A stretch of 64,000 nt of DNA from Allomeiothermus silvanus DSM 9946 (lineage in GTDB: Bacteria > Deinococcota > Deinococci > Deinococcales > Thermaceae): the NCBI RefSeq assembly GCF_000092125.1, contig NC_014212.1, positions 454,001-518,000 on the forward strand, given 5' to 3'. Shown here piece by piece: positions 35,874-56,275 of the stretch; positions within the stretch are counted from its first letter, which is position 1, and every line of letters begins with the position of its first letter. The position numbers and the translations under genes are program-made. The notes beneath the pieces are model-generated. The model was given only the letters and a program-made list of their open reading frames with translations, was not told the origin of the DNA and made no database searches.

Positions 35874-38481
35874 CCTGCCTGCACTGGTGTGCGAACTCTG
35901 GCCGGAGTCGGGGGCCAGGCCGGGGCGAGCCGGGGTATGCCGGGCGGTGTGGCGGGGCGACACGCACCCCTCGCTTTCGCTATTTCAAGCACGGGGGATG
36001 TGGTTCTGGAAGGACCACGGCAGCGGGGAGAGCGGAAACGCCTTCCACCTGTTGCTCCGGGCCGGGATGAGTAAGGAGGAGGCGGCGGAACTGCTCAAGG
36101 CCAGGGCGGGCGAAGTTGCTTTGCCCGAGGCGTATTTTCGCCAAGCGGAGCGAGATGCTTCTTTCGCCGCGAAGCGGGGTGGGGTAGGGCAAACACGTCT
36201 TGTTGCTTTGCCCGAAGGGCAAACACGTCTTGAGGCGGCCCTGCTCAGCGGGCGCCCTCCCGCTGAGCATCCGCGCAGGGGGGCCGGAGCGGCTTCACCG
36301 GACGATCCCCTGTTGGGACAGAGCCCTGACGGGCCTGTTCACCAAACGGACGATCCCCTCTCGGGACAGACGGCAGATGCCGCTGTTCACCAAAGGGCAC
36401 CGGGCCTCACCCCGGAGGAACGGCGAGCCCTGGAAGAGGCCCAGCGGCGCCTCGACGAGGCGGCCATAGCGGGGCGGGGAATCACTCTCGAGCAGGCCCG
36501 GCGGGTGGGGTTGGGGAAAAGCTGCCAGGGTGACCTGGTGATCCCCATCCTGGGGCCTTCTGGCGAGCCCCAGGCGGTCAAGACAAGGCTGTTAGCGCCC
36601 GGGGCGGGCTACCGCTACCGCTACCTCACCCCGGGCCGGGGAGCTCCACCCTGGTACTCCCCAGGGTTCGGGCAGCACCCCGAGCGGGCAGTGCTGGTGA
36701 TGGAAGGCGAACTCAACGCCATCACCAGCTGGTTCGCCCTCGAGGAGAAGCTGGACGTGATCGGTATGCCCGGCGTGGAGGGCCGGGTGCCCTGGGAGAG
36801 TCTGGCGGGTCGAAGGGTATACCTCTACGCCGATGAGGACGAAAGAGGAAGGACAGCCCTCGAGCGCTGGCTTCAAGCTGCTTCGCGAGACACTTCTTTC
36901 GCCGCCAGGCGGGGTGGCGAACACCTTGCGGCCAGGGCCGCGGATGTTGCTACGCTGGAACCCCTGGGGGGCGGCCTGGATGCGTGCGAGTGGGCCCACG
37001 CCCAGGGGCAGGAGAGCCTCAAGGTGCGGCTGCTGACGCTCATGGAGGGGGCCTGTCGGTGTTCCCCTGACGGGGAAGCAGCGCACCAGGCCCCCCACCG
37101 TCAGGACGAGGACTGGCCCCCCAAGAGGGGAGCGGTTTCCCCCTTCCTCGATACCGAGGGGGCCAACGCCGACCGGATCGTGCAGCACTTCGGCGCTGAT
37201 CTGGCCCACGTGGAGGGCCAGGGCTGGCTGGTGTGGGCGGGCACGCACTGGGAGCGAAGCGACGCGGTGGCGCTGGAGATCATGCAGCGCCTCCCGCAAC
37301 TCGTCCTGCAGGAGGCGCTTCAAGCCGGAGAGGCGGGCGAAACAGAGAAGAGCCAGAAGCTCTTCAAGTGGGCGCAGAAGTCTGATCGGCTCAGCACCGT
37401 GCGAAACAGCGTGGTGATGGCCTCGTGGGCGCTGCGGGTACGAGAGTGGGAACTCGACGCGAGGACCGACGAGCTTCCGCTGGAAAACGGGGTGCTCAAC
37501 CTGGAGTCGCTGACGCTGGGCCCGCACCGGAAGCTCGCCTGGCATACCCACGTTCTCCCTCACCCCTACGATCCCTATGCCGAGTGCCCGCGCTGGGAGC
37601 GTTTTTTGGAGGAGGTGCTGCCGGACGAGAATCTGCGGCGCTACGTGCAGAAGGCGGTGGGCTATAGCCTGCTGGGCGACAACCGCGAGCACGTGATCTT
37701 CCTGTGCTACGGGAGTGGGGCCAACGGCAAGAGCGTTTTCCTTGAGGTCCTCTCCTGGCTTTTCGGTCCCTACGCCCACCGGGCCGACCCGGAACTGCTC
37801 CTGCAAAGGAACTCTGACCGCCACCCCACGGAGATCGCGGCCATGCGGGGCAAGCGGCTGGTAGTGATGCAGGAGGTGGACCCCGAAGGCATCTGGCGCA
37901 GCGCCCTGCTCAAGAGCATGAGCGGGGACAACACCCTCACCGCCCGCAAAATCCGCGAGAATCCCATCACCTTCACGGTGACCTGGAAGGTGTGGATCGC
38001 CGCCAACCACCTGCCGCGCTCGAGGGACCATAGCGAGGCGTTCTGGCGGCGCATCAAGCTCATCCCTTTCAACGTGACCATCCCACCTGAACGCCGGGAT
38101 CGCACCCTGCCCTGGAAGTTGCGAGAAGAGTCGGTAGGTCTTCTGGCCTGGGCCGTGCAGGGCTTGCGGATGTACTACCAGGAGGGCCTTCAGGAGCCGG
38201 AGGCAATAGCGCAGGCCAACCGCGCCTACCGCGAGCGCGAGGACCAGGTAGGACGCTTCCTGAAGGAGCGGTGCCAGCTCGGAGGTGGCCGCACTGCATC
38301 GTCAGCGCTGTACGCGGCCTATCAGGAATGGGCCCTCGAGGAAGGAGAGAGGATGCTCAGCCAGAAAGCGTTCGTGGCCGAACTGGAACAGCGGGGGCTC
38401 GAGCGTAAGAGGCTGGCAGAGGGAATCTTCTTCCTCGGAATGGAGCTTCCCACGGAAAGGAAGTCATCTACCTCGGACTGA
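35812..38481 (+). CDS. primase-helicase (P4 alpha/D5-type, TOPRIM plus SF3 helicase)
   Basis: 889 residues. Residues ~15-95 form a degenerate CHC2-like primase zinc region (WRGDTHPSLSLF, WKDHGSGESGNAFHLL). Residues ~100-195 are a linker made of repeat insertions. A TOPRIM-like part follows (LVMEGELNAITSW ... YLYADEDERG, ~295-345), then the D5_N domain and an SF3 helicase with Walker A GSGANGKS (~633-640), a Walker B-like LVVMQEVD and WIAANHLP sensor. It would start and unwind ICE replication at the adjacent iteron region. ATG 35833 (MTKDAL) is an alternative start. The last residues (KSSTSD) come from the left end of an inserted IS200/IS605 remnant. Confidence 0.88.
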   Translation: MSWRKTPMTKDALTHSIERVDLPALVCELWPESGARPGRAGVCRAVWRGDTHPSLSLFQARGMWFWKDHGSGESGNAFHLLLRAGMSKEEAAELLKARAGEVALPEAYFRQAERDASFAAKRGGVGQTRLVALPEGQTRLEAALLSGRPPAEHPRRGAGAASPDDPLLGQSPDGPVHQTDDPLSGQTADAAVHQRAPGLTPEERRALEEAQRRLDEAAIAGRGITLEQARRVGLGKSCQGDLVIPILGPSGEPQAVKTRLLAPGAGYRYRYLTPGRGAPPWYSPGFGQHPERAVLVMEGELNAITSWFALEEKLDVIGMPGVEGRVPWESLAGRRVYLYADEDERGRTALERWLQAASRDTSFAARRGGEHLAARAADVATLEPLGGGLDACEWAHAQGQESLKVRLLTLMEGACRCSPDGEAAHQAPHRQDEDWPPKRGAVSPFLDTEGANADRIVQHFGADLAHVEGQGWLVWAGTHWERSDAVALEIMQRLPQLVLQEALQAGEAGETEKSQKLFKWAQKSDRLSTVRNSVVMASWALRVREWELDARTDELPLENGVLNLESLTLGPHRKLAWHTHVLPHPYDPYAECPRWERFLEEVLPDENLRRYVQKAVGYSLLGDNREHVIFLCYGSGANGKSVFLEVLSWLFGPYAHRADPELLLQRNSDRHPTEIAAMRGKRLVVMQEVDPEGIWRSALLKSMSGDNTLTARKIRENPITFTVTWKVWIAANHLPRSRDHSEAFWRRIKLIPFNVTIPPERRDRTLPWKLREESVGLLAWAVQGLRMYYQEGLQEPEAIAQANRAYREREDQVGRFLKERCQLGGGRTASSALYAAYQEWALEEGERMLSQKAFVAELEQRGLERKRLAEGIFFLGMELPTERKSSTSD
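36115..36202 (+). repeat. A-family palindromic repeat split by a nested insertion
   Basis: GTTGCTTTGCCCGA (36115-36128) and GGGCAAACACGTCTTG (36187-36202) are the two halves of an A repeat. Between them lie 58 bases containing the hairpin GGCG-tatttt-CGCC and a D repeat (36154-36183). The uninterrupted A copy next door has 1 base here, so the net insert is 57 bases, 19 codons. Confidence 0.85.
36154..36183 (+). repeat. D-family repeat (D1), nested in the loop of an A repeat
   Basis: GATGCTTCTTTCGCCGC-GAA-GCGGGGTGG; encodes DASFAAKRG. Almost identical to the insert in the C-family copy at 36877 apart from a TG/CA change and a recoloured loop. Confidence 0.85.
36202..36232 (+). repeat. A-family repeat (A2), intact
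   Basis: GTTGCTTTGCCC-gaa-GGGCAAACACGTCTTG, directly adjoining the split copy; encodes VALPEGQTRL, the same peptide as the copy at 44051 in an unrelated gene. Confidence 0.9.
36243..36268. repeat. 10-bp perfect hairpin in the primase linker
   Basis: GCTCAGCGGG and CCCGCTGAGC with a 6-base loop, between the A and B repeats. Not clearly a member of families A-D. Confidence 0.6.
36299..36346 (+). repeat. B-family repeat (B2)
   Basis: CGGACGATCCCCTGTTGGGACAG...CTGTTCACCAAA, a 48-bp unit whose second stem has become ACAGxxCCC/GGGxxTGT. Encodes DDPLLGQSPDGPVHQ. Confidence 0.85.
36347..36394 (+). repeat. B-family repeat (B3), tandem to B2
   Basis: Second 48-bp unit, CGGACGATCCCCTCTCGGGACAG...CTGTTCACCAAA, with the stem again recoloured (ACGGC/GCCGC). 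Encodes DDPLSGQTADAAVHQ. Confidence 0.85.
36877..36928 (+). repeat. C-family repeat with a D repeat nested in its loop
   Basis: GCTGCTTCGC (36877-36886) and GCGAACACCTTG (36917-36928) are the halves of a C repeat. The 30 bases between them are a D repeat (GAGACACTTCTTTCGCCGCC...GCGGGGTG). The uninterrupted counterpart (40734-40757) has a 3-base loop, so the net insert is 27 bases, 9 codons. Confidence 0.85.
37058..37082 (-). repeat. C-family repeat (C1), reverse orientation
   Basis: Minus strand GCTGCTTCCCCGTCAGGGGAACACC shown as halves GCTGCTTCCCC and GGGGAACACC around GTCA, in the linker before the D5 domain of the primase-helicase. Confidence 0.85.
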
Positions 38482-40018: not shown

Positions 40019-41713
40019 ATGGCCAGCGTCAGGGACATCGCCATCGAATACGGCCAGCAGGTGGAGGCGCTGCTCGAGCAGCTGGGGGCCCGGGGTCCGG
40101 CCCGGGGCGCGGGGGAGCTACTGGATCAGGTCAAACACCTCATCAACCCGGAAGGGCTGCGCAAGGTGCGCTGGTTTCTCAGGCTGCGCAACAAGGTGGT
40201 GCACGGTAAACCCGTGGAAATGCCCATGCCCTCCTGGGAGCAGGTAGATCGGGCGGGGCGGCAGGCGGTAGGGGTGCTCGAGGGGATACTCGCCAGGCAG
40301 CGCCAGGCTCCGCGGATGGACAGGTTGCCAGGCAGCGCCAAGCAGCCTGTCACGGGCGGTCCCCTTCGGGACGAACGGGTACCCGCAGGCCAGATGGCTG
40401 ATCGTTCTCGGCCTGCTGACCTCCCCAGACCGGTCTACCGCATCCAGGAGCGGGATGGGGCCTATGCGATCTGGGTCGGCCCGGCAGGGGTGTGGGTGGT
40501 GGCGGAGGAGCGGGAGGTGCTCGAGCAGGCCCGGATGGATGTGGAAGTGCGGCTGGTTACGCGTTTCCCCCGGCTTCCAGTAAAGGTTGCCCGGCGCGCA
40601 GATAGGCTCGAGCCTCGAGTTCGCTGGGGCCGCGCACGGCTCACTCCGAAGGAGATTGCCGAAGCCGTGCGGCTCCTGGCCCACAAGGAGCCTGTGGCTG
40701 CTTCCCTGTCAGGGGAACAGCTCGCCGATCCCCAAGGTGTTCGCTCCGCGAAGCAGCCGTCGGGACAGACGGCTCACGCGGCTGTTGACCGGGTGGAGCA
40801 GAGAGCCCAGCCTTCCGGTAGCACGCAGGAGTCGGATCGGATGCGCAGGGTAGCGCTAGAGGACGTCCCCGCCACCTTCTACGTGGGACCGGTAGGGGTG
40901 CTGGTGGTCTCGGAGTTCACGCTCACTGCCGAGACCGAGGCGAAGCGGGTGCTGGAAGATTCCAAGGGTGCCATCCCTGCCATCCCGGTGGTGCGCGCTC
41001 CCGGCCTGAAAGCGCCCCAGGGGCGGATGGAGGGGATGCTGGCCCTGCGGGATGAGGAGGCCATCAGGGACTACCTGCGGGGAAAGCGCCTGCTGGATGA
41101 CGACGAGGTGGACATGGTGGCAGGGTGGCTTGCCAACCGCCAGGCCCCCGTACCTGTCATCCGAGACAAGAGGGGGAGCTATAGCCTGAAGGGGGAGGAG
41201 GTCACGGAGGGGTGGGTGAAGGCCCCGTCCGCCTTCGTGGTCGAGCTGGTGCCGCCCGGCCCACCGCCCAAACGCCACCTCCTGACGGTTGCCTTGCGGG
41301 CCTTGAGTTGGCGGGCGCTGTTCCTGCCCGAAATGGTCATATTCGCGGCGATGGGGCTTTCCAGGCCCGGCTCTGTGGACGCTGCGCTTCTCGTTTTTGT
41401 CGGAGCGCTGGTGCTACGTTTTATAGCGCTGTTTGGCAGCTTCTCCGTGTGGAAGTTCTGGATGCTGCTAGTCATGGGAGCCCTGGAACTGCTCGTTGCC
41501 TGGCCAGCGGTGCATGCGCAAGCCCGGAAACTCGACGTAGAAAAGCTGCTCTCGGCTTGGTACCTGATGCTGATTCTGGTGCCCGGCCTGATCTCCTTCT
41601 TCCGGGCAATATGGCTGCTGCTGCCACAAAGCGTTCCCCTGAGAGGCAAGCAAAAGCCCCTTCCCCGTCGCGCGGCGAAGGAAGCATCTAGCGACCGTAA
41701 GCGAGTTCGCTAG
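40019..41713 (+). CDS. membrane protein with N-terminal HEPN-like domain and duplicated middle domain
   Basis: 564 residues. Residues ~1-95 are helical and carry RNKVVH (R57-x4-H62), the Rx4-6H motif of HEPN ribonucleases. Two similar segments follow, YAIWVGPAGVWVVAE (~150) and FYVGPVGVLVVSE (~290), each resembling the GPxGVxVV core of NERD-type domains, separated by palindromic repeats. The C-terminal ~150 residues contain about four membrane helices and a basic tail with a D repeat. The combination suggests a membrane-bound effector, perhaps defence or entry exclusion; this is inference. Four-gene operon behind the iteron region. Confidence 0.6.
   Translation: MASVRDIAIEYGQQVEALLEQLGARGPARGAGELLDQVKHLINPEGLRKVRWFLRLRNKVVHGKPVEMPMPSWEQVDRAGRQAVGVLEGILARQRQAPRMDRLPGSAKQPVTGGPLRDERVPAGQMADRSRPADLPRPVYRIQERDGAYAIWVGPAGVWVVAEEREVLEQARMDVEVRLVTRFPRLPVKVARRADRLEPRVRWGRARLTPKEIAEAVRLLAHKEPVAASLSGEQLADPQGVRSAKQPSGQTAHAAVDRVEQRAQPSGSTQESDRMRRVALEDVPATFYVGPVGVLVVSEFTLTAETEAKRVLEDSKGAIPAIPVVRAPGLKAPQGRMEGMLALRDEEAIRDYLRGKRLLDDDEVDMVAGWLANRQAPVPVIRDKRGSYSLKGEEVTEGWVKAPSAFVVELVPPGPPPKRHLLTVALRALSWRALFLPEMVIFAAMGLSRPGSVDAALLVFVGALVLRFIALFGSFSVWKFWMLLVMGALELLVAWPAVHAQARKLDVEKLLSAWYLMLILVPGLISFFRAIWLLLPQSVPLRGKQKPLPRRAAKEASSDRKRVR
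40697..40720 (+). repeat. C-family repeat (C2)
   Basis: GCTGCTTCCCT-gtc-AGGGGAACAG, between the two similar middle domains of the HEPN-like protein. Confidence 0.8.
40724..40792 (+). repeat. B-family repeat (B4) split by a nested C repeat
   Basis: GCCGATCCCC (40724-40733) and CGTCGGGACAGACGGC...GCTGTTGACC (40758-40792) join to a normal B unit when the 24-bp C repeat between them is removed. The host frame (DP...SGQT...V) is preserved because 24 is divisible by three. Confidence 0.85.
40734..40757 (-). repeat. C-family repeat (C3), nested in the first loop of B4
   Basis: Minus strand GCTGCTTCGC-gga-GCGAACACCTT, inserted after GATCCCC of the B repeat. Confidence 0.85.
41659..41690 (-). repeat. 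D-family repeat (D6) at the C-terminus of the HEPN-like gene
   Basis: Minus strand TAGATGCTTCCTTCGCCGC...CGGGGAAGG; more diverged than D1, D2 and D5. Confidence 0.65.
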
Positions 41714-43465: not shown

Positions 43466-43572
43466 AGTTTCCTTTCCGACGAGAGGCGCAGGCCGCGAAC
43501 CCAGCCTCTCGTCTTTTCGACTTGAGACTGAGCGCCTGCCTGACCCTTTCGAAAAGGAACCAGGTAGCCCTC

Positions 43573-43586
43573 AGTAAGATATTACC
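43573..43586. promoter_or_regulatory. putative repressor operator O3
   Basis: AGTAAGATATTACC matches the palindrome GGTAATATATTACC at 12 of 14 positions and lies directly before the ribosome-binding site of the gene at 43603. Confidence 0.5.
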
Positions 43587-43602
43587 AAAAGGGAGGAATA
43601 GA

Positions 43603-44316
43603 GTGCGGGTTCCAGTGTTTCCGAATACCCTGACCAGCGATCAGATCGAGGGGTGGTTAGCTCGGGGTCTCACAGCGGAGCTCAAACCGGACATCGTCAA
43701 AACCAGCCTGCTCGCCCCCAGGCCGGTGCGGCTGCCCGTCTATGAAGGCGAGCAGCACCGGGGCGTTCTGGAAGGGTGGACGAGCCTTGAAGAAAACGCC
43801 CTGGTCATCGAGGGTGTCTTCCAGGAAGAGGCGGGCGGGGTGGCGGTACGGGTGGCCGTCTCCTGGGAGGAGATCGCCCGCCGGTTCGACCTGGCGGACA
43901 CCCCGCTCTACCTGTGGCGGGCCCGGCGGCTTCCCGCGGGGGCGTGGGAAGCGTGGCGGGCTGATCTGGATCGGCTGGGTCTGGTGGACAGAGCCGTGCT
44001 TCTCGGAACATACCCGGTTGCTTTGCCCGCTTGCGGGCAAACACGTCTTGTTGCTTTGCCCGAAGGGCAAACACGTCTTGAGGGTGGCCCGCTCTGCCGG
44101 GCAGAACCCACCCAGGAGAACGCCTGGGCCTTCTGGCTGGCGGCCTGGCGGTTCGGAAGCCGGGTGGCCCTCGACCTGGGAATGCGGCGGGCGAGCCTCG
44201 AGCGGGCCTTCACCGCGCTCAAAGAACGTCTGCCGGAGCTACCCGATGTTCTGCTCGAGCGCAGCCGGGAGGCGGAGGGCTGGGGTAAGGAGGAGCTGCG
44301 GGCGCTTCGAGAATAG
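43603..44316 (+). CDS. hypothetical ICE protein, 237 aa, with tandem A repeats
   Basis: GTG 43603 is chosen because GGGAGGA lies 7 bases upstream. The first 145 residues form a mixed domain (RVAVSWEEIARRFDLADTPLYLWRARRLP); then two A repeats encode VALPACGQTRLVALPEGQTR; the last ~75 residues are helical (AFWLAAWRFGSRVALDLGMRRASLERAFTALKERL). No family recognised. Probably under repressor control through O3. A terminator follows immediately. Confidence 0.55.
   Translation: MRVPVFPNTLTSDQIEGWLARGLTAELKPDIVKTSLLAPRPVRLPVYEGEQHRGVLEGWTSLEENALVIEGVFQEEAGGVAVRVAVSWEEIARRFDLADTPLYLWRARRLPAGAWEAWRADLDRLGLVDRAVLLGTYPVALPACGQTRLVALPEGQTRLEGGPLCRAEPTQENAWAFWLAAWRFGSRVALDLGMRRASLERAFTALKERLPELPDVLLERSREAEGWGKEELRALRE
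44017..44050 (+). repeat. A-family repeat (A4)
   Basis: GTTGCTTTGCCCGC-tt-GCGGGCAAACACGTCTTG, stem longer than in A5 by complementary bases. Confidence 0.9.
44051..44080 (+). repeat. A-family repeat (A5), tandem to A4
   Basis: TTGCTTTGCCC-gaa-GGGCAAACACGTCTTG, 30 bp, identical to A2 in the primase-helicase gene. Confidence 0.9.
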
Positions 44317-44369: not shown

Positions 44370-44957
44370 CTACCACCAGCGTGCGGCCATCACGAAACGC
44401 GGCTCCAGCCCGAACCCCGCGAGCTTTCCCCGCAGGCTCGCGGCCTTCTTTTCGGTAGGAGCCCCCCAGAACTGCCCCACGAAGCGCAGGGCGAAGGTCT
44501 CAGCCTTTCGCTGTAGCTGCGCCAGAGAGTAGCTTCCCGCGTCGTACTCGATGGCGATGGGGCCCCGCTGGCTGTACCAGTAGGCATCCGGTTGCTCCCG
44601 GTAGTGAATGCGGTGGGTATCGGTACGCCACGCTTCGGGCCTCACCCCCAGGATATGCCGCATCTCGCCTACCCCGGCCAGGTGGCGCAGGAGCGGCGGC
44701 CCCAGCCGCGCTACCCACAGATAGGGGGTAAAGAAGGCAACCTCCATCAGCCGGTTGGCGTGGTGCGAGGGGTTCAGCACCGCCCGCACTGCGAAGAGGC
44801 CCATCCCGTGGGCCTCCTTCTCCGAGGGAACCACCCCGTAGTGACGCATGAGCTGGCCTTCCGAGAGGGCCAGGTCGCAGCGTAAAGCGGCATGGATGCG
44901 CTCGAGGGCGTCCCGGCGCTCACTTCCCCGCAGCGGGGTCCTGACCTGGGACAACAA
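44370..44957 (-). CDS. replication-relaxation-like protein with PD-(D/E)xK-type motif
   Basis: 195 residues. An N-terminal winged-helix-like part (DLALSEGQLMRHYGVVPSEKEAHGMG) is followed by REQPDAYWYSQRGPIAIEYDAGSYSLAQLQRKAETF, the PDA...E-x-D-x-G...K arrangement of replication-relaxation family proteins, which have a restriction-endonuclease-like fold. Such proteins are typical of conjugative elements and may take part in plasmid replication or transfer. The start is uncertain: a TTG at 44957 overlaps the end of the VirB10-like gene. Confidence 0.6.
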   Translation of the reverse strand: MLSQVRTPLRGSERRDALERIHAALRCDLALSEGQLMRHYGVVPSEKEAHGMGLFAVRAVLNPSHHANRLMEVAFFTPYLWVARLGPPLLRHLAGVGEMRHILGVRPEAWRTDTHRIHYREQPDAYWYSQRGPIAIEYDAGSYSLAQLQRKAETFALRFVGQFWGAPTEKKAASLRGKLAGFGLEPRFVMAARWW

Positions 44958-45669
44958 GGATTACCACCTCCGTTCCCTTCTCGGCCTGGGCCACCCGCAC
45001 CACCGCCTTCTTGTCCTGCTGCAGGGCGAACAGGTTGGCCAGGCTTCCGGCCATGAAGAGCTCCAGCGGCGGGGTCTGCGACGACTGAGCCACACCCCCG
45101 CCGGGCAGCACGGTCACGCTCTTGGCCTGCGAGGCAGCGGTGACGTAATCGCTCACCCCGCGCAACGACCCCCGGATGAGGTCGGCGGCGATGGAAGGGG
45201 CTTCCTCACGCACTCTGGCCGCCACCCCCAGTGTCCCCTCGGCGTCCAGCAGGGTGGCGTTGGTCGCGTACTCCCGGCCATCCTTGATGACCCGGGTGAG
45301 CTTCCCCTTGAGGCGGCGGGTCTCGTCCAGGGTGACCTCCCCCACCCAGGTCGAGCCGTCCTCGGCGTCTATGGCCACCGCACCCGGAGCTCCTTCCGCG
45401 ATGAGCACCCCCACCCCTAAACGGCCCTTGAGGCGGGTGCCCAGGGGGTAGGGGGCTGCTGCAACGGTGACGCTTGTTTCGCCGCGTAGCGGGGTGGGAG
45501 TCTGGGCTCCCGCGACGGGAGCCGTAGGAAATGCGGGAGCTTGAGGCACAGCAGGTGCCGGCGAAAGAGAGGCCTGGAGCTGCTTTCCCGTCAGGGAATC
45601 ACCGAGGTTAGCCCCGAAGGGGCTACCTTGGGGCGGAGCGGATGAAGATGGGGGGGCAGACCCTCCCAC
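44920..45669 (-). CDS. virB10: VirB10/TrbI-like, C-terminal part (after a frame change)
   Basis: 249 codons beginning in a different frame inside the end of the N-terminal part. It contains the TrbI-type outer-membrane-contact domain: YPLGTRLKGRLGVGVLIAEG, the Asp/Gly-rich beta region, and a C-terminal helix. Together with 45591-46748 it makes one VirB10 of about 600 residues. Three palindromic repeats (C4, C5, D3) sit in the linker (SPFGANLGDSLTGKQ, TPLRGETSVTV). On its own it lacks a membrane anchor. It ends at the start of the replication-relaxation-like gene. Confidence 0.75.
   Translation of the reverse strand: MGGSAPPSSSAPPQGSPFGANLGDSLTGKQLQASLSPAPAVPQAPAFPTAPVAGAQTPTPLRGETSVTVAAAPYPLGTRLKGRLGVGVLIAEGAPGAVAIDAEDGSTWVGEVTLDETRRLKGKLTRVIKDGREYATNATLLDAEGTLGVAARVREEAPSIAADLIRGSLRGVSDYVTAASQAKSVTVLPGGGVAQSSQTPPLELFMAGSLANLFALQQDKKAVVRVAQAEKGTEVVILVVPGQDPAAGK
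45466..45497 (+). repeat. D-family repeat (D3)
   Basis: GTGACGCTTGTTTCGCCGC-gta-GCGGGGTGG; lies antisense to the virB10-like gene, where it encodes PLRGETSVT. Confidence 0.8.
45579..45603 (+). repeat. C-family repeat (C4)
   Basis: GCTGCTTTCCC-gtca-GGGAATCACC, antisense to the host gene. Confidence 0.8.
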
Positions 45670-46748
45670 GAGATAGAAGCTCCCCCCTGGCCGCCCTGAC
45701 CCTCCACTGCACGCACTGCGAAGGTGGACTGGGTCTCCTTCTTGAGGGTCAGGCTGCTCTGGGCCTGGGCGGTGACGCTTCTTTCGCCGCCGCCAGGCAA
45801 GGAAGGAGCAGGCTGGCCCTGGAGGCTGGCCGCCACATCATCGGCCACACTGCCGGTAACAGGGCGGGAGGAGGAAGTCGGTGGGGTCGAAGGACGGCTA
45901 CTGAGGGTGAGCCCTGCCCCCATGAGCGAGGGGGTGGTGTAGAGGGTCAGGGGTTGGGACGGCGCGGTGGGTTGCGTGGAGGCCGCCTGACCGGTCGCGG
46001 ACTGGGCCGGGGCCGCGCTGGCGCTGTAGATCGTAAGAGGCTGGGGCGGAGCCGGTTGCGCAGCGGTTCCGGTATTCGCATAACCCGCGGGAGCAGAAGA
46101 GGCTGGATACCCTGAAGGCGGCGGGGGTGGCACCTCGCTATAGCCGGAGGGGGGTGGGGGCACGCTCGAGGCATCCGAGGTACCTGGGTTTTCCGGCGTG
46201 CCCCCCGGTGTGGTGGCGGTCTCTTTGCTTTGGGCTGAGGGGGACTCAGACGAGGCAGACGAAGCCAGTGAAGCCGCACCTGCGGCCCGGCCGGGCCGGT
46301 ACTCAGAGGTAGGCGCCGGTGGCTGTACAGGGACCGGTTGTTGCGAAGCTGAGGTAGCGACCGGCACCGGCAGGCCCCCTTTGGCGGGTCCGGTCTCCCG
46401 TGTGGATAGGGTGAACCACAGGGTGGTGGCCAGTACCAGACCCAGGAAGCCCACCGCGATCTGCTTGGGCCGCGAGGGCACCCACTCCCCGGTGAGCTCG
46501 TCGTAGCGGTCGAGCAGGCGGTGCTTGAGGGTGAGGAGGGAGCTACGCCGGGCCACCGCGCGGGCGGTCTCCTCCTCCGGGGTGGGGAGGTCGTCGAAGA
46601 CCACCCCCGACTCGAGCAGGCTGGCCAGTTCGGGGTTCTCCTTGCGCAGGCGCAACAGAAGCTCGTCGAACTCAGGATCGGTCGGAGAAGGGACTGGAGT
46701 TTTCAGCGCAGCCTCCACCTGCTTTTTGACCTCTGGGTCAAGGCGCAT
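45591..46748 (-). CDS. virB10: VirB10/TrbI-like, N-terminal part
   Basis: 385 residues: a cytoplasmic N-terminus, one membrane helix (QIAVGFLGLVLATTLWFTLS, about residues 94-113) and a long Pro/Ser-rich periplasmic segment, as in VirB10 proteins that span the envelope. A D repeat (D4) lies near residue 325. The frame ends in a non-homologous tail after a run of seven C in the coding strand (G7 at 45650-45656); one extra C would join it to the C-terminal domain. Divergent from the pilin gene, with the palindrome at 46751 between them. Confidence 0.75.
   Translation of the reverse strand: MRLDPEVKKQVEAALKTPVPSPTDPEFDELLLRLRKENPELASLLESGVVFDDLPTPEEETARAVARRSSLLTLKHRLLDRYDELTGEWVPSRPKQIAVGFLGLVLATTLWFTLSTRETGPAKGGLPVPVATSASQQPVPVQPPAPTSEYRPGRAAGAASLASSASSESPSAQSKETATTPGGTPENPGTSDASSVPPPPSGYSEVPPPPPSGYPASSAPAGYANTGTAAQPAPPQPLTIYSASAAPAQSATGQAASTQPTAPSQPLTLYTTPSLMGAGLTLSSRPSTPPTSSSRPVTGSVADDVAASLQGQPAPSLPGGGERSVTAQAQSSLTLKKETQSTFAVRAVEGQGGQGGASISWEGLPPHLHPLRPKVAPSGLTSVIP
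45607..45630 (+). repeat. C-like repeat (C5), adjacent to C4
   Basis: GTTAGCCCC-gaa-GGGGCTACCTTG; shares the hairpin plan and 3' ACCTTG with C repeats; a near-identical copy is at 61344. Confidence 0.7.
45650..45656 (-). other. C7 run at the VirB10 frame junction (possible slippage site)
   Basis: Seven consecutive C on the coding strand within the overlap of the two VirB10 frames. A one-base gain (or two-base loss) fuses N- and C-terminal parts. Confidence 0.6.
45771..45802 (+). repeat. D-family repeat (D4)
   Basis: GTGACGCTTCTTTCGCCGCC followed by GCCAGGCAAGG, antisense to the virB10-like gene; encodes PGGGERSVT there. Confidence 0.75.
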
Positions 46749-46803: not shown

Positions 46804-47145
46804 ATGAACAGGATCGGAGCTATGGCAAAGCGGCTGGTGGCGCTGCCGGAGGTTCGCGGTTTGCTGGTGGGGCTGGTGCTGGTGGGGTTGGGGAGCGCGG
46901 CCCACGCCCAGGCGGATCAGGCGTTTAACAACCTGACCACCGCCATCTGCAACATCTACAACGCGATGAAAGGCCCCTTCGGCCTGGCGCTGGTGATCAT
47001 CATGTTCGCCATCGGCGGCATCAGCCTGATGATCGGGGGCCGGAAAGCCGTGCCCCTCATGATCGGCGCGGCCATCGGGGGCGTGATCCTGGCCGCGGCC
47101 CCCTCGTTCGCCAAGATTTTCATCAGCAGTACCTCCAACTGCTAG
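46804..47145 (+). CDS. virB2: VirB2/TrbC-like pilin
   Basis: 113 residues: a long signal sequence (cleavage likely after AAHAQA, residue ~40) and two hydrophobic helices separated by a short polar loop (LALVIIMFAIGGISLMIGGRKAVPLMIGAAIGGVILA), the VirB2 plan. It would form the conjugative pilus. Ribosome-binding site GAGGTGAGAGG. First gene of the long tra operon, downstream of O4. Confidence 0.88.
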   Translation: MNRIGAMAKRLVALPEVRGLLVGLVLVGLGSAAHAQADQAFNNLTTAICNIYNAMKGPFGLALVIIMFAIGGISLMIGGRKAVPLMIGAAIGGVILAAAPSFAKIFISSTSNC

Positions 47146-47153
47146 GGGGATGC

Positions 47154-47462
47154 GTGCGTCGCCGGGTGTACCGCCTCTACCAGCCCATCACCATCGTGGG
47201 CCTGGAGCTATGGCAGCTTCCGGTCATCGGGCTGGGGTTCGTGATCGGCCTGCGCCTCATGGAGGGGGTGCATCCGGCGGCGGGGCTTCTGGCAGGAGCC
47301 GCGACCGGCTATATGGCGCTGATGTTGGCGGAGAAACTCCGGGAGCGCTACCCCGGAGCCTCTTTGCTGCACGAGGCGCTGTGGCTGACCCAGAGCGACC
47401 GCTATACGCCGGGAAGAGACCGGGAGACCACGCCGCTCGTCATTCGCCATGACCGCGAGTAA
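47154..47462 (+). CDS. virB3: VirB3-like inner-membrane protein
   Basis: 102 residues, starting at GTG 47154, with an N-terminal basic stretch (YRLYQPITIVG) and two membrane helices. Size, position between the pilin and VirB4 and the overlap of 14 bp with virB4 fit VirB3. Confidence 0.82.
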   Translation: MRRRVYRLYQPITIVGLELWQLPVIGLGFVIGLRLMEGVHPAAGLLAGAATGYMALMLAEKLRERYPGASLLHEALWLTQSDRYTPGRDRETTPLVIRHDRE

Positions 47463-49980
47463 TGTAAATCTCTTCAACCGCCCTCGGGAGGGCTCGCTCA
47501 CCGAGGAGTTTCCGTACTGGGAGATCCATGAGGGGGTGATGTTCCTCGAGGACGGGCGGTGCGAGGTGGGGGTGGAGCTGCTCCTCAAGCCCACCCTGCT
47601 CCTGCCGCAAAGCGAACTCGAGGGCCTGCTCTACATGGTGCGCAGCGTCCTCAGGAACGGGGTGCCCCAGGGCACGCGGGCGCGGCTCTTCGTGGAAGCG
47701 GCCCCGGCTCCTGAGGAGACCGTTCAGGCCTACCGGGAGGCCTTCGACCCCACCCACCCCACCGCCCGCGCCATCGGGGAGGAGCGCTACCGCCACTGGC
47801 GGGGTCTGTGGGAGCGCGGGGAGGTGATGGGTCGGCGGGCCTTCCTCACCGTGGCCTACGGCCACAAGCGCCCCCGGCGGCTCCCCTTCGGGGGGGCCGA
47901 GCTTACTGAGCGGGTGAAGGAGGGGGCCAAAATCCGCGAGCGCATCCGCATGATCGCCAGGGGGCGGGGGGTGGAGGTGCGGGAGATGGACTCCCAGGAG
48001 GTCTTCGGCCTGGTCTACCGCTACCTCAACCCCGGCCTGCGGCAGGCCGGGGTGCCCCGCTACCGCCCCACCTGGCAGCGCTACCCGAGGAGGGCGGTGG
48101 AGCGGATGCCGGGCCTGCGGCCCCCCACCCTGCGCACCCAGCTCCTCCGGAGCGAGGTGGACAACTCCCGGCGTGACGCACTCTACGTGGGCGGGCGCTG
48201 GCTCTCGCTGTTCACCCTCTACACCATCCCCGACGAGACCTACACCGAGATGGGCGACGTGCTGGCGCTGGCCGGAGGGGGGGAGTTCTACCTGGTGGTG
48301 GACTTCCACCACGAGCCCTACGAGCGGGCCCTGAAGGCCCTCAAAGCGCGGGCGCGGCGGTTCTATGCGGCCAGCGCCAACACCGAGACCTACGTAGACC
48401 CCAACATCCTGGTGGGGCAGAGAGAGAGCGAAGGGGCCATCGCCCACATCTCCCAGACCGGCGACCACGTGTACCGGGTGGGGGTGGCCCTGATCCTGAT
48501 CGAGCATGAGCGGGAAGCCCTCGAGCGCAGGGCCAGCCAGGTGGTGGGGCGGCTTGCGGAAATCCCCGGCAACCCCTTCCGGCAACTCAAAAACGGCCTC
48601 TTCGAGCCCTGGAAGAGCCGGGCCCCCTTCAGCGGGGGGACGAGCGACGAGGTGGTGAGCCTCTTAGAGTCCAACGCCGCCGACCTGGTACCCCTCACGG
48701 GGGCCTGGAAGGGGCACGACAAGCCGGTGGTGCTGTTCCACAACCGCTTCCTCTCCCTCACCCGATTCGACCCCTTCACCCCCACGACCAGCAACTGGAA
48801 CGGCATCATCGCCGGGGGCTCGGGATCGGGCAAGACCTTCTTCACCCAGTACGTGCTCGCGGATTTGCTCCGGCGCGACGAGGTGGACGTGGTGATCCTC
48901 GACCGGGGGCGGAACTACGAGGCGCTGGTGGAGGCGTTTGGCGGAGCGTTCATCGACATCCGCCCCGGCGGGGAGACGGCGGTCAATATGTTCGACCTCG
49001 AGGAGGGCGAGGCCGAACCCGGCCCTGAGAAACTTCAGGACGTGTTGCGTTTCCTCCGAGCGATCCTCCCGCCAGGGGAGGACCGAACCGAGGAAGCTGT
49101 GGAGAACGCCATCCTGGAAGCGGCCATCGAGCAGACCTACAAGCGAGCCACCCCCGACCTCCCCCAGCCGGACGGGAGCTACAGGAAGGTCTACCAGGGA
49201 GCCCGCCTGTCCGACCTGGTGCAGACCCTGGTGCTGCTGGACGAGGTGGGCAGCCGACCGGCCTCATCCTTGGAGAAGGAAGTGGCACGGAAGCTGGCGC
49301 TCAGGCTTCAGTCCTGGGTTGGGGAAAGCCCCAAGGGGCAGTTCCTCGACTGGCCCACCAGCGTGCCCCTGGCCCAGGCGCGGGTGGTGTGCTACGAGCT
49401 AGAGGGACTCAAGGACGACCTGGAGATCATCGGCACGCTGCTCATCGCGGACCTGGTATGGAAGCGGGCCAAAAAGGGCCAGGGACGGCGGGTGCTGGTG
49501 GTGCTCGACGAAGCCTGGAAGGTCTTTCAGAGCCCCTACGCCAGCCGCCTCATCGAGGAACTCTACCGACGCTTCCGCTTCCTGGGCGGGGGCATCTGGA
49601 GCATCACCCAGAGCCTCGCAGACTTCGCCGGGGAGGGCCCCCGAGCCCTCTTACAGAACACCAGCTTCCACTTCCTGCTGCGGCTTTCCAGGAGCGAGGC
49701 GGAGCTTGCGGTAATGCGGGACGTGCTGGGGATGCCCGACCGGGCGATTGCGGTGCACGAACGGCTGACCGGGGTCAAGGGGGTCTACTCCGAGGTCCTG
49801 GCCTGGATTCGCACCGGCGAGGGCAAGGAGGGCGAGGTGATCGCGGTGCGCCCGAGCCCGGTGGACTACTGGTTGTTCACCTCGACCCGGGAAGAGGTGG
49901 AGCGGCGGCGGGAGGCTACCCGGCGCTACGGCGACGTGATCCGGGCGGTGCGGGCGCTGGCTTACGGTGAGGAAACATGA
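47449..49980 (+). CDS. virB4: VirB4/TraC-type T4SS ATPase
   Basis: 843 residues. Walker A GGSGSGKT lies at about 453-460, Walker B VVLDEAW at about 684-690, and the RecA-like motif ITQSLADF at ~720. The N-terminal domain (~1-400) is the family-specific region. It energises pilus biogenesis and substrate transfer at the inner membrane. Full length and intact, with no repeat insertions. Confidence 0.95.
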   Translation: MTASNVNLFNRPREGSLTEEFPYWEIHEGVMFLEDGRCEVGVELLLKPTLLLPQSELEGLLYMVRSVLRNGVPQGTRARLFVEAAPAPEETVQAYREAFDPTHPTARAIGEERYRHWRGLWERGEVMGRRAFLTVAYGHKRPRRLPFGGAELTERVKEGAKIRERIRMIARGRGVEVREMDSQEVFGLVYRYLNPGLRQAGVPRYRPTWQRYPRRAVERMPGLRPPTLRTQLLRSEVDNSRRDALYVGGRWLSLFTLYTIPDETYTEMGDVLALAGGGEFYLVVDFHHEPYERALKALKARARRFYAASANTETYVDPNILVGQRESEGAIAHISQTGDHVYRVGVALILIEHEREALERRASQVVGRLAEIPGNPFRQLKNGLFEPWKSRAPFSGGTSDEVVSLLESNAADLVPLTGAWKGHDKPVVLFHNRFLSLTRFDPFTPTTSNWNGIIAGGSGSGKTFFTQYVLADLLRRDEVDVVILDRGRNYEALVEAFGGAFIDIRPGGETAVNMFDLEEGEAEPGPEKLQDVLRFLRAILPPGEDRTEEAVENAILEAAIEQTYKRATPDLPQPDGSYRKVYQGARLSDLVQTLVLLDEVGSRPASSLEKEVARKLALRLQSWVGESPKGQFLDWPTSVPLAQARVVCYELEGLKDDLEIIGTLLIADLVWKRAKKGQGRRVLVVLDEAWKVFQSPYASRLIEELYRRFRFLGGGIWSITQSLADFAGEGPRALLQNTSFHFLLRLSRSEAELAVMRDVLGMPDRAIAVHERLTGVKGVYSEVLAWIRTGEGKEGEVIAVRPSPVDYWLFTSTREEVERRREATRRYGDVIRAVRALAYGEET

Positions 49981-51355: not shown

Positions 51356-52801
51356 ATGCGGATTTTCCCTGTAATCATCCTGGCCCTGGTGGTGATGAGC
51401 GGGCTGGCCCTGGCCGATCCACCCCAGGTGCCCCCCCCGATGGGCACGACGCAGCAGCAAAACCTGCTCCAGAGCTTCTTCGACCTCTCGCGCTGGCTCC
51501 AGAGCATCAGCCGCGACCTGGCCCGCCTGGAGAGGGGGATTTCCGGGCTGGCGCTGGCCCTGGTCCTGCTGGGGTTCGTCTACGGCGTTGCGCAGGGCAT
51601 CCTGGGCGGCGGCCTGGAGGCCATCAAGGGTGCTTTCGTGCGGCTGGCGGTGGTGGGGCTGTTGCTCTCGCTCTCGACGAGCGGGTTCGTGGGCAACACG
51701 GTGGAGGGGGCCCTGACCGCAGCGCGGGAGTGGGGCACCGACTCGGTAGCCGCCACCCTCTCCGATGCGGGGGATAGCCTCGAGGCGCTGGCCATGCGGG
51801 TGGTGCCCTTCATGGGCGCGGTGGGGGCCCTCAAGATGATGACCGCGAAGGTTGCTGAGAACGCGGCCAAGAGCGCGGTTACCCGATCCGTCGCCTCCGG
51901 GACCAGCGCGGGGTCGGCCAGGGTGCTCCAGTACCTCAACTGGACCACCCTGCTCTTGATCCCGCTGATGCTGTTTTTCTTCATCCTCATCGTGGTGGCC
52001 TCGTTCACGGTGGAGGTGGGGGTGGCCCTCTTTCCGCTGGCGGCGGCCTTGCTGATCTTCCCTCGAGGTTCGGCGGCGGACTGGTTCGGCAAGTGGGTAG
52101 CGGCGGTGATGGGGGCCATCCTCATCGTGATCCTGCTGCCCGTCGGCTTCAAGGCGGCGGTGGAAATCGGCATCAACCGCCCGGTCAACCAGGTCAACGC
52201 CTACGTAGATCAGGCGCTGGCCCGGCTGGAAGCGGTCAAACAGAAGAGCGAGGAAGCGCTGGACGCGGCCAAGCAGGGTAATTGCGGCATCGACCCGCTG
52301 TGCTATCTGGGGGCCAAGTTCGATGCTGCGAAGACCGAGATAACCCTGGCGCTACAGGCCTTGCAGACGGTGATCACGGCCTGGCTGCTGGGGGTCCTCC
52401 TCCTGCTGGCGGGCATGGCGGCGGCGGCCTACATCCTGTTCAACATCGAGCGGGTGGCCATGAGCTTCATCGGCGGCTTCGTGGCCACCGGCGTGCGGCA
52501 GATGCTGGGCACGTCCTCCCTGGGCGGGCGGCTTTACCCCGGGGGTGCGGGCGGAGGCGGGGTCGCAGCAGGCGCGGGAGGTGCGGAACGCACGGTCGTC
52601 CTGCCGGGGGAACGGGCGCTGCCAGCCGGGGGTGGGGGCGGGGGTGCGGCTTTGCCCCGCCCGGCGGCTTACGAGATACAGCCCTATACATCCGCAATGC
52701 AGCGCTACGGCGATGACGTGATCGAGGGCGAATGGAGGCCGGTACGGGAGTTGCCCAACCCCTCGCCACGGGGCCTGCCGCCCGCATCCAGCGAGCGCTA
52801 A
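51356..52801 (+). CDS. virB6: VirB6/TrbL-like polytopic membrane protein
   Basis: 481 residues. A signal-like first helix, then about six more membrane helices, and a hydrophilic Gly-rich C-terminal tail (GGAGGGGVAAGAGG). Hydrophobic pattern and gene order match VirB6/TrbL, the inner-membrane channel component. A cysteine pair in GNCGIDPLCY lies in a periplasmic loop. Confidence 0.85.
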   Translation: MRIFPVIILALVVMSGLALADPPQVPPPMGTTQQQNLLQSFFDLSRWLQSISRDLARLERGISGLALALVLLGFVYGVAQGILGGGLEAIKGAFVRLAVVGLLLSLSTSGFVGNTVEGALTAAREWGTDSVAATLSDAGDSLEALAMRVVPFMGAVGALKMMTAKVAENAAKSAVTRSVASGTSAGSARVLQYLNWTTLLLIPLMLFFFILIVVASFTVEVGVALFPLAAALLIFPRGSAADWFGKWVAAVMGAILIVILLPVGFKAAVEIGINRPVNQVNAYVDQALARLEAVKQKSEEALDAAKQGNCGIDPLCYLGAKFDAAKTEITLALQALQTVITAWLLGVLLLLAGMAAAAYILFNIERVAMSFIGGFVATGVRQMLGTSSLGGRLYPGGAGGGGVAAGAGGAERTVVLPGERALPAGGGGGGAALPRPAAYEIQPYTSAMQRYGDDVIEGEWRPVRELPNPSPRGLPPASSER

Positions 52802-52813
52802 CGAGAGGGATAT

Positions 52814-53041
52814 ATGGAACTGAACGCATCGGACCTGATCGAAGGCAAAAGGCTGCTCGGACGCTGGTTCACCCACCGGGGCCGCGAGTGCGTGGTGCGG
52901 GCGGTGGGCGAGGTATGGGAGATGCCCGGTAGTGCCGGGCGCGAGGTCGGCACCTGGCAGCTCGAGGTGGACGGAAAGGCCCTCGAGCGGGTCTACGGCT
53001 CCCTGGAGGCGGCCACCTGGAGGTTGGTCGAGCGGGTATGA
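52814..53041 (+). CDS. small hypothetical protein, 75 aa
   Basis: A short cytoplasmic beta-rich protein (RGRECVVRAVGEVWEMPG, WQLEVDGKALERVYG). It sits between virB6 and virD4, with GAGAGGGATAT before the ATG and a 4-bp overlap with virD4, so it is likely a real member of the transfer operon. Function unknown. Confidence 0.65.
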   Translation: MELNASDLIEGKRLLGRWFTHRGRECVVRAVGEVWEMPGSAGREVGTWQLEVDGKALERVYGSLEAATWRLVERV

Positions 53042-55407
53042 GCGTGGCCCGGCGGCAATCCCTGCTGGAAGTTCCCGCCTCCCACAAGCTCCTGAAGTTT
53101 CTGGGAGGCTTGGTCATGCTTTCTACGCTGGCCCTGGTGGGCTGGCTCGGGTGGCAGGCGGCGCTGGAGGTGGCTCGGGAAATGCTCCGGGCCGGGTGGG
53201 GCGGCCTTTTGCAGGCGGCCTCGCCTGCAGAGCTAATGCTCCGCTGCAACACCGACTTCCTGGGTAATTGCAGCCAGGTGTTCAACACACAGTGGCAGAA
53301 GGCGCTCCCCCTGGACGCCTTGCGGCTGGTGGTGGCGGGGGGGTTCGCCCTGGGGATGCTCCCCTTTCTGGTTCGGCCATACCGCCCGCGCAAGAGTCCG
53401 GGGCAGGGACGCTGGGCTACGGCCAGAGACCTCGCAGGCTACCTGGGGGAGAAGGGTACCGGATGGTACGGCCTCTTCGAAGGCAAACCGCTCCGGGTAC
53501 CCCCCATGGAGCGGCGCACCGGGACGCTGGTGGTGGGCAAGCCGGGTGGGGGCAAGACCACCGGCTACTACCAGCCCAACCTGCTCCTGGACGCCAGGGA
53601 CGGCTGGAGCGCCGTCGTATTTGACCTGAAGTGGCCCGACGAAGGCGGGCTGATGGAGGCGGTGCGCTACTACCGCCACTTCGGGCGGGCGGTGTATGCC
53701 TACACCCCCTTCACAGCAGACTCGGCCCGCATCGCCCTGCTGGAGGGGGCGGAGAACCCCCAGGAGGCCAGCAACATTGCCGACATCCTGGTGCCACGGG
53801 GAGCCGACGGGGGGGCGGAGTTCTACGCCAACCTCGAGCGGATGCTCCTGGCCGGGTTGATATGGGTGGAGGGGCAGGAGGGGCGCTACTCCCTGCGGCA
53901 CATCCTGGAGGTGTTGCGCCAGGGCAAGGAGGAGCTCAAAGCCTACGCTGAGGTCAGGCCCCACCTCAAAGAGCGCATCGGAGCAGTGCTCCAGACCCGC
54001 GAGGACATCATCGCCGGGGTGGTGGCAGGGCTGGCAGGCAGGCTGGCCCTCTTCGAGAACGACCATTTGGATCGCTCGAGCCTGCCGGGTGCAGGGGCGG
54101 TGCCCTGGCCTCGCCTGTTCAGCGAGCCCAGCCTGCTTTACATCGGCATCCCCCAGGAGCACCTGGAAGGGGGCAAGGCCACGGCCCTCCTGTGGCTGGT
54201 CAAGCGGATCATGGACCGGGAGATCCACCGCGCCGCAGCCCGGAACGGGGGGACGCTGAAGACGCTGACCTCGGTCTACCTCGACGAGTTCACGGCCTTT
54301 GGGAAGCTCCCCGGCATCGAGGACAACCTCAAGACCATGCGCAGCAGGGGAGCGGCCTTCCACGTGAGCGTGCAGAACCTGGCCAACGGGCGCTCGGTAT
54401 ATGGGCGGGATGTGTGGGAGAGCATTCAGGGGACGTTCGGGCAGCAGGTGTATCTGCTCGAGCGGCTCTCGGAGGAGGATCGCAAGTGGCTCGCGCGCAC
54501 CCTGGGCTATGAGACGGTGGTGGGCTACTCCCGGAGCTCTTCCAGGAGCGGCTTCCTCTCGGGCAGCGAGGGCGAGGGGGAACGGGAAGAGGCCCGCTTC
54601 CTCTTATCCGCTGAGGAGATGCGGGAGGTGAAGAAGGGCGAGACCGTGGTGATCCTCGACGGCAAGCCGCCGGTGCGCACCTACCTGGGGGGGATGTGGG
54701 AGAAGCGCCACCCCCTGTACGGGCTGTACGAGAAGGCCCGGAAGGCGGCCAGGAAGGAGAGCACCCCGCCGGTATCACAACCTGAGACCGTCACCGGCGG
54801 AGCCGCCCCTATGCAGGATGAGTGCCTTGCGGTTGCCACCGGAGGGCAGCGGGCTGCTTTCCCGTCAGGGAAACACCTTGAGGCGAGCCCACTCACGGAC
54901 GATCCCCTGTCGGGACGGGCAGGGCCCGTACACCGAACGGACGATCCCCTGTCGGGACGGGCAGGGCCCGTACACCGGGAGGCCAGTGACCCGCGCAGCC
55001 TCGAGGACTACCTTCGTCGCCTGACCTCTGTGATGCCGGTCTTCCAGCGTTACTACCACAAGAAGACCACCACCGGGGTTCGTTTTGTGCTACCGGAGGG
55101 TTTCCCCGCGCCTGAGACCGCCTGGGTGCGGGAGGGCTGGATTGAGGTGCGGGGCAAGGAGGAGCTCTCCCTCAACCTCACCAGCCGGGGGCTGGAAGTG
55201 CTGGAGAAGGGCTTCGTGGCCGCCTTGGTGCGCTGGTGCCGGGTGCGGGAGTGGGCGAGGCGGCAGGGCCTGGACAGCCAGGCCGAGGTCTACATGGGCG
55301 AGGAGGAGGCCGAAACCGTCCTGCGGGAGTGGGCGAGGCGGCTCCCCAAGGAAGAGGGGCGGGTGCAGGTCAGGGTTTCGTTGGAGGCGCTGGGCGATGA
55401 GGCTTGA
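53038..55407 (+). CDS. virD4: VirD4-type coupling protein (T4CP)
   Basis: 789 residues. Two membrane helices (~20-45 and ~98-118), Walker A GKPGGGKTTG at ~167-176, the SAVVFDLKWP strand, Walker B VYLDEF at ~411-416 and the QNLANG sensor. Residues ~606-648 come from a C repeat and two tandem B repeats (FPSGKHLE, DDPLSGRAGPVHR twice) located between the ATPase and a C-terminal domain of ~140 residues not usual in VirD4. It should bring the relaxase-DNA complex to the channel. Repeats sit in a linker and leave the motor intact. Confidence 0.92.
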   Translation: MSVARRQSLLEVPASHKLLKFLGGLVMLSTLALVGWLGWQAALEVAREMLRAGWGGLLQAASPAELMLRCNTDFLGNCSQVFNTQWQKALPLDALRLVVAGGFALGMLPFLVRPYRPRKSPGQGRWATARDLAGYLGEKGTGWYGLFEGKPLRVPPMERRTGTLVVGKPGGGKTTGYYQPNLLLDARDGWSAVVFDLKWPDEGGLMEAVRYYRHFGRAVYAYTPFTADSARIALLEGAENPQEASNIADILVPRGADGGAEFYANLERMLLAGLIWVEGQEGRYSLRHILEVLRQGKEELKAYAEVRPHLKERIGAVLQTREDIIAGVVAGLAGRLALFENDHLDRSSLPGAGAVPWPRLFSEPSLLYIGIPQEHLEGGKATALLWLVKRIMDREIHRAAARNGGTLKTLTSVYLDEFTAFGKLPGIEDNLKTMRSRGAAFHVSVQNLANGRSVYGRDVWESIQGTFGQQVYLLERLSEEDRKWLARTLGYETVVGYSRSSSRSGFLSGSEGEGEREEARFLLSAEEMREVKKGETVVILDGKPPVRTYLGGMWEKRHPLYGLYEKARKAARKESTPPVSQPETVTGGAAPMQDECLAVATGGQRAAFPSGKHLEASPLTDDPLSGRAGPVHRTDDPLSGRAGPVHREASDPRSLEDYLRRLTSVMPVFQRYYHKKTTTGVRFVLPEGFPAPETAWVREGWIEVRGKEELSLNLTSRGLEVLEKGFVAALVRWCRVREWARRQGLDSQAEVYMGEEEAETVLREWARRLPKEEGRVQVRVSLEALGDEA
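54853..54883 (+). repeat. C-family repeat (C6) in virD4
   Basis: GCTGCTTTCCC-gtca-GGGAAACACCTTGAGG. Encodes AAFPSGKHLE. Confidence 0.85.
54896..54937 (+). repeat. B-family repeat (B5) in virD4
   Basis: 42-bp unit CGGACGATCCCCTGTCGGG...GCCCGTACACCGAA; second stem ACGGGC/GCCCGT. Encodes DDPLSGRAGPVHR. Confidence 0.92.
54938..54979 (+). repeat. B-family repeat (B6), tandem to B5
   Basis: Second 42-bp unit, identical to B5 except at the 3' end. Confidence 0.92.
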
Positions 55408-55985: not shown

Positions 55986-56275
55986 CGATGGAGCGTGCGA
56001 TACGGGTCATCGGTTGGGCAGGCGTGATCGTCGGCCTTTCGGGCGTGCTGCCGGGGATTTTCCTCCTCCGGGGCAGCATGATCGAGTTCGGGATGCTGGT
56101 GCTGCTGCTCTCGGCCCTGGTGCTTCTGGGGCTGGGGGCGCTGGAGGAGCTCCGCCACATCCGGCGGGGGATTGCGCGGCTGGCGGTGCGGGCCGAGCAG
56201 GTTGCTTCCCCGTCAGGGGAACACTCGGTTGCTTCCCCGTCAGGGGAACACTCGGAGGAGCAGCGTGCGGAATAA
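55982..56275 (+). CDS. small membrane protein, 97 aa, with tandem C repeats at the C-terminus
   Basis: GTG 55982 overlaps the previous stop (ATG 55988 is an alternative). Two membrane helices (~8-28 and ~35-55) are followed by a charged helix and a tail VASPSGEHS repeated twice, encoded by two identical 27-bp C repeats. Unknown function; part of the transfer operon. Confidence 0.65.
   Translation: MTMERAIRVIGWAGVIVGLSGVLPGIFLLRGSMIEFGMLVLLLSALVLLGLGALEELRHIRRGIARLAVRAEQVASPSGEHSVASPSGEHSEEQRAE
56201..56254 (+). repeat. two tandem C-family repeats (C7, C8)
   Basis: Two identical 27-bp units, each GTTGCTTCCCC-gtca-GGGGAACACTCG (56201-56227 and 56228-56254). Confidence 0.93.

Follow-up and report, generated by a model that had tools for sequence, protein, structure and literature searches.

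Results

The window analysed here is a 64-kb stretch of the Meiothermus silvanus DSM 9946 genome, covering bases 454001-518000 of a 3,249,394-base contig (whole genome, 3,721,669 bases). Within a conjugative cluster that holds virB2, virB4 and virD4 genes identified by Pfam, it contains a virB10-like locus carried on two minus-strand open reading frames (ORFs) (Table 1). A first-pass annotation had described these as the anchor and channel halves of VirB10, split at a run of seven C (C7). Its account of the two ORFs stands, including their different frames and their overlap at 45591-45669, in which C7 lies; the frame change, however, is not at C7. The anchor half comprises a cytoplasmic part, one transmembrane segment (IAVGFLGLVLATTLWFTLST) near residue 97 and a proline-rich linker; the last ~29 of its residues are read in a shifted frame. 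In the channel frame, 305 codons are free of stops, up to 45837. The cluster is syntenic in five relatives, and its gene order is that of the relatives in which the gene is unsplit.

Table 1. Positions of genes, homopolymer runs and repeats at the virB10-like locus, numbered from the first base of the window.
Feature	Position	Strand	Basis or remark
Replication-relaxation-like protein adjoining virB10	44373..44957	-	Pfam Replic_Relax
Channel half, 249 aa from GTG start	44920..45669	-	ORF; no signal-peptide-like segment at start
Copy of third palindromic repeat family (TTTCGCCGCNANGCGGGG)	45465..45497	no strand	Repeat search
Copy of second palindromic repeat family (GCTTYCCNGTCAGGGRAA)	45578..45604	no strand	Repeat search
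Anchor half of VirB10-like gene, 385 aa	45591..46748	-	ORF translation; collinear with first 352-415 codons of 5 unsplit orthologues
Palindromic repeat, strongest hairpin downstream of break	45602..45630	no strand	Repeat search; second copy at 61339-61367
C7 run of the first-pass annotation, 25 bases downstream of break, in channel frame	45650..45656	-	Sequence
G6 run on coding strand, site of frame change	45682..45687	-	GQGGQGG in anchor frame directly before, SFYLVGG in channel frame directly after
19-base sequence in anchor-half linker, common to 45465-45483 (one mismatch)	45770..45788	-	
virB2/trbC pilin gene, same transfer cluster	46804..47145	+	Pfam TrbC
virB4-type ATPase gene, intact	47449..49980	+	Pfam P-loop_TraG; unbroken against 5 relatives
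Multi-spanning membrane protein, virB6 position, intact	51356..52801	+	Label from position and composition; no Pfam match; unbroken against relatives
virD4-type coupling protein gene, intact	53038..55407	+	Pfam T4SS-DNA_transf; unbroken against relatives

We infer the label VirB10-like from genomic context and from sub-threshold profile matches. The architecture is that of a VirB10-like protein, with a cytoplasmic N-terminus, one transmembrane segment, a proline-rich linker and a C-terminal domain, encoded in a virB2-B4-D4 cluster. Neither window half matched a Pfam model, and TrbI (PF03743) did not score above cut-off. When 18 relatives were scanned at E<=1, TrbI matched 2 (best 0.0037) and the conjugative-transposon TraM model matched 8 (best 1e-4); where scores were shown, all fell below cut-off. 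Alignment by hhalign to R751 TrbI and R388 VirB10, single-sequence targets that give the comparison low power, returned nothing, as did VirB9/VirB8-type controls. An hmmsearch of the PDB gave no match, NCBIfam gave nothing useful, and an AlphaFold2 model built from three sequences (mean pLDDT 38.8) was unusable for fold.

Short palindromic repeats occur inside coding sequence at 36150-36182, 36885-36917, 45465-45497 and other positions. With one mismatch allowed, TTTCGCCGCNANGCGGGG has 44 copies in this genome, several of them spaced 27 bases apart, and 15 in the genus relative; two other genera have 0 and 1, and a backward control gave 1 in this genome. The GCTTYCCNGTCAGGGRAA family, found at 40696-40722, 45578-45604, 54852-54878 and 56200-56253, has 12 copies in this genome, half of which (6/12) are in the window, and 0, 1 and 0 copies in three relatives. 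Further families of direct repeats, also with palindromic units, lie at 36187-36252 and 44035-44100, and at 54895-54977, within three reading frames: the primase-like one, 43522-44316 and virD4.

Each of five close orthologues (G002, G008, G016, G007 and G001) is one uninterrupted frame, 578-611 codons long, that spells GQGG(Q/K)GGSFYL(V/L)GG over the site. The window divides this peptide between two frames: TFAVRAVEGQGGQGG belongs to the anchor frame and SFYLVGG to the channel frame, and the two directly adjoin at a run of six G (G6). The peptides common to the orthologues therefore place the frame change at G6, and we rejected C7 as the break point; all sequence downstream of G6, C7 included, is in the channel frame. 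The earlier placement was misled because the GTG start at 45669 hides the longer open channel frame. Because all five orthologues cross the site in one frame, the break is not a chance overlap of ORFs.

At the break codons, a long G run is absent from four of these orthologues (G002, G007, G008 and G016), and G016 has a seven-G run three codons further upstream of the site, unbroken. The nearest relative, G001, which belongs to the same genus, has a seven-G run (G7) exactly at the site, and its frame is open. Two further loci, L024 (Meiothermus luteus) and L025 (Calidithermus chliarophilus), equal G007 and G002 letter for letter at the junction and were counted once with them. Runs of at least six G or C number 81 in the window; the 22 reading frames that we checked hold 40 of them, and virB10 is the only broken frame. 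Because such runs are common here, a run near a break is by itself weak evidence.

For each of the five relatives, the ORFs of at least 100 codons in 40 kb were compared with the window. ORFs lying largely under a better-matching one were left out, as were those below 50% identity, and 127 were kept. The comparison flagged twelve as frame-shifted. Five are the virB10 orthologues, three run antisense to real genes, and in the other four the additional match falls in the part of a stop-to-stop ORF that extends upstream. Thus virB10 is the sole real gene shifted among the genes compared, and general decay of the element was rejected, as no other gene is shifted against the five relatives.

The broken gene shows no decay. 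For the channel domain (165 aligned codons), dN/dS on the window branch is 0.060, 0.035 and 0.064 with three outgroups, and on the sister (G001) branch it is 0.188, 0.153 and 0.107. Over 119 codons of the anchor, dN/dS is 0.091-0.154 for pairs that include the window and 0.080-0.202 for other pairs, excluding the identical pair G008-G016. The channel half holds no further stop. This lack of decay implies that the break is very young, or is not real, or that the product is still made.

As a control on the assembly, 1.2 Mb of the 3.25-Mb chromosome was compared with 1.2 Mb of a 3.10-Mb contig of G008. At an identity of at least 55%, a score of at least 100 and a coverage of at least 0.6, 245 core genes (80,459 aligned residues) passed, and these yielded six candidate frame-change rows at three places. 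At none of the three was there a G/C run of at least six near the junction, which indicates that homopolymer miscalls are rare in this assembly and favours a real mutation. Portions of the genome report (PMC3035272) describe 8.3x Sanger and 16.6x 454 coverage, polishing with 9,068,515 Illumina reads, a stated error rate below 1 in 100,000 and 158 annotated pseudogenes.

A profile search with the channel domain across 111 genomes of the phylum found 28 places in 25 genomes, 21 of which are open frames of at least 400 codons. The seven shorter places are the window, four loci of genus-group g4 (258-295 codons), one contig end and one partial match. Conjugative elements of Meiothermus, Calidithermus and Thermus carry unsplit virB10-like genes, the closest of which are 83-88% identical to the window over the channel half and share its gene order; unlike the window, these genes are single open frames. 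Thermus sp. NEB1569, a candidate second split virB10, was rejected, since its frame is open and all that is absent is the gene-table entry for the anchor half.

The four g4 loci (L015-L018, in G039, G029, G032 and G022) have a two-gene form: a channel ORF comes after an anchor ORF, and its start overlaps or abuts the anchor stop codon, coinciding with it or lying no more than a few bases away. The N-terminus of each channel ORF is, as judged by eye and hydropathy, a hydrophobic stretch resembling a signal peptide, with A-Q at its end, and the four form one group with support of 99/99 in a tree that carries a long-branch warning. The g4 genomes probably belong to Thermus, given the near-identity of other g4 loci to Thermus plasmids (L011 equals L036 over the channel domain). 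Like the window, these loci encode anchor and channel as two polypeptides, with the division in the proline-rich linker; each of their channel genes, however, possesses a start and a signal-peptide-like segment of its own, neither of which the window shows. The maximum 15-residue hydropathy in the first 60 residues is 0.61 for the window channel ORF and 1.45-1.81 for L015-L018, and no channel gene with its own export signal lies beside the anchor stop codon in the window.

Two other VirB10-like sequences came to light. A second gene (L002, G000:C3:88324-92037), on the 124-kb plasmid of the same genome, is unbroken, encodes 618 aa and is 33% identical. On T. thermophilus HB8 plasmid pVV8, L036 (62352-63269) is a channel fragment beside a TnpB-type gene; no anchor half was found for it, and it is probably a remnant. 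IMG/VR yielded no relative. In PLSDB, 22 records match the channel half and 9 the anchor half, all below 60% identity, with no other M. silvanus copy among the matches listed. We found no paper on this frameshift and, in literature on Thermus that included part of PMC4605624, no report of a split VirB10; the portions consulted of two papers on ICETh1, which is another element (PMC5365140, PMC7767461), do not mention VirB10.

Discussion

We consider it probable that a one-base contraction of the G run broke the VirB10-like gene very recently in this strain. One lineage is broken, unsplit homologues span the break and the motif at the break is not conserved. These are the features of a singleton frameshift or recent pseudogene in the GeneTack sense (PMC3711429, excerpt), a class from which the break differs in no essential way, its cause here being either mutation or a reading error. 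The first-pass annotation had allowed for damage or mis-sequencing as an alternative to slippage, and that alternative is supported. A recent mutation is the most likely reading, an undetected sequencing error comes next, and programmed recoding is unlikely.

A second reading is that the gene is intact: the 454/Sanger assembly would have miscalled a homopolymer, polishing would have missed the mistake, and the run length on deposit would be incorrect. We regard this as doubtful, although several observations speak for it. The 16.6x of coverage from 454 is one (PMC3035272, in part); another is that the Thermus aquaticus project, in the pages seen of PMC4605624, met 27 frameshift errors from 2008 sequencing. 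The break is also a singleton of the unclustered, homologue-bridged kind that Antonov et al. expect to be mostly sequencing errors (PMC3711429, excerpt), and its channel half is free of decay, the complete absence of which is expected equally from a reading error and from a gene still in use. Against these stand the Illumina polishing with its stated error rate (PMC3035272, in part), the absence of any frame change at a G/C run of at least six in 245 core genes of the same assembly, and the single break among 40 such runs in the window frames that we checked. We take the deposited base count to be probably right, and a recent mutation to be the probable cause.

It is unlikely that some full-length VirB10 arises through recoding at G6, whether by ribosomes slipping back one base (-1) on G GGG GGA or by slippage of the RNA polymerase; in that event, improbable as it is, the break would limit VirB10 and not abolish it. 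Slippery heptamers follow the pattern X XXY YYZ, which the G6 context fits. Both halves are conserved, and the 101 bases directly downstream of the run fold more stably than shuffles, at -40.5 kcal/mol (z -2.28; 6/200 shuffles as stable). A seven-G run also gives low-level frameshifting in another gene (PMC5009743, excerpt). The slippery site is, however, not conserved among the close orthologues, being missing in four of five and longer and in frame in the fifth, and the strongest hairpin lies more than 50 bases downstream and is one copy of a dispersed palindrome, for which reason we rejected it as a dedicated stimulator. The first-pass annotation had proposed programmed slippage at C7. That proposal is not supported, since the change lies elsewhere, at a site whose run is absent from four of the five close orthologues and is longer, in an unbroken frame, in the fifth. 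It had also named unsplit orthologues without the run as evidence to the contrary; four of the five are of that description, and G001 is unsplit but has G7. A phase-variable gene would show run lengths that vary among isolates; the species is represented here by one isolate, and its congener G001 has another run length and an open frame. As for its precedent, dnaX of Thermus thermophilus, homopolymer slippage does occur there, in the same bacterial family and with two possible products, but the case differs in kind: dnaX has nine T and its full-length product in one ORF, and efficient RNA polymerase slippage is described for nine A or T (PMC5009743, excerpt). The window has G6, no conservation and a full-length product that is not in one ORF. 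The least probable reading is that each of the two ORFs encodes a functional protein, on the model of the two-gene form seen in the four Thermus-group genomes. That form shows an anchor gene and a channel gene with a hydrophobic start in one group with 99/99 support; the window channel ORF lacks a hydrophobic N-terminal segment, its ORFs overlap through a shifted frame instead of a stop-start junction, and its close orthologues are fused. A related idea, which we judge very unlikely, takes the break as a new G-run frameshift that leaves full-length VirB10 to rare -1 slippage, throttling conjugation, or that is a first step to a two-protein VirB10.

Under the favoured reading of a recent mutation, ribosomes on the deposited sequence would translate the membrane anchor and the proline-rich linker, leave the frame at G6 and stop ~29 codons later. 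The channel domain would then be unjoined to the anchor and have no export signal of its own, and for these reasons the transfer system should lack VirB10. The frameshift is ordinary in kind, and it would matter only if the full-length protein were still made. What follows for this strain is either that its element probably has a defective transfer system or that its reference sequence should be checked once. The conserved two-gene form in one Thermus-group clade is a more useful lead than the frameshift, as it suggests that VirB10-like proteins can have their anchor and channel on separate polypeptides.
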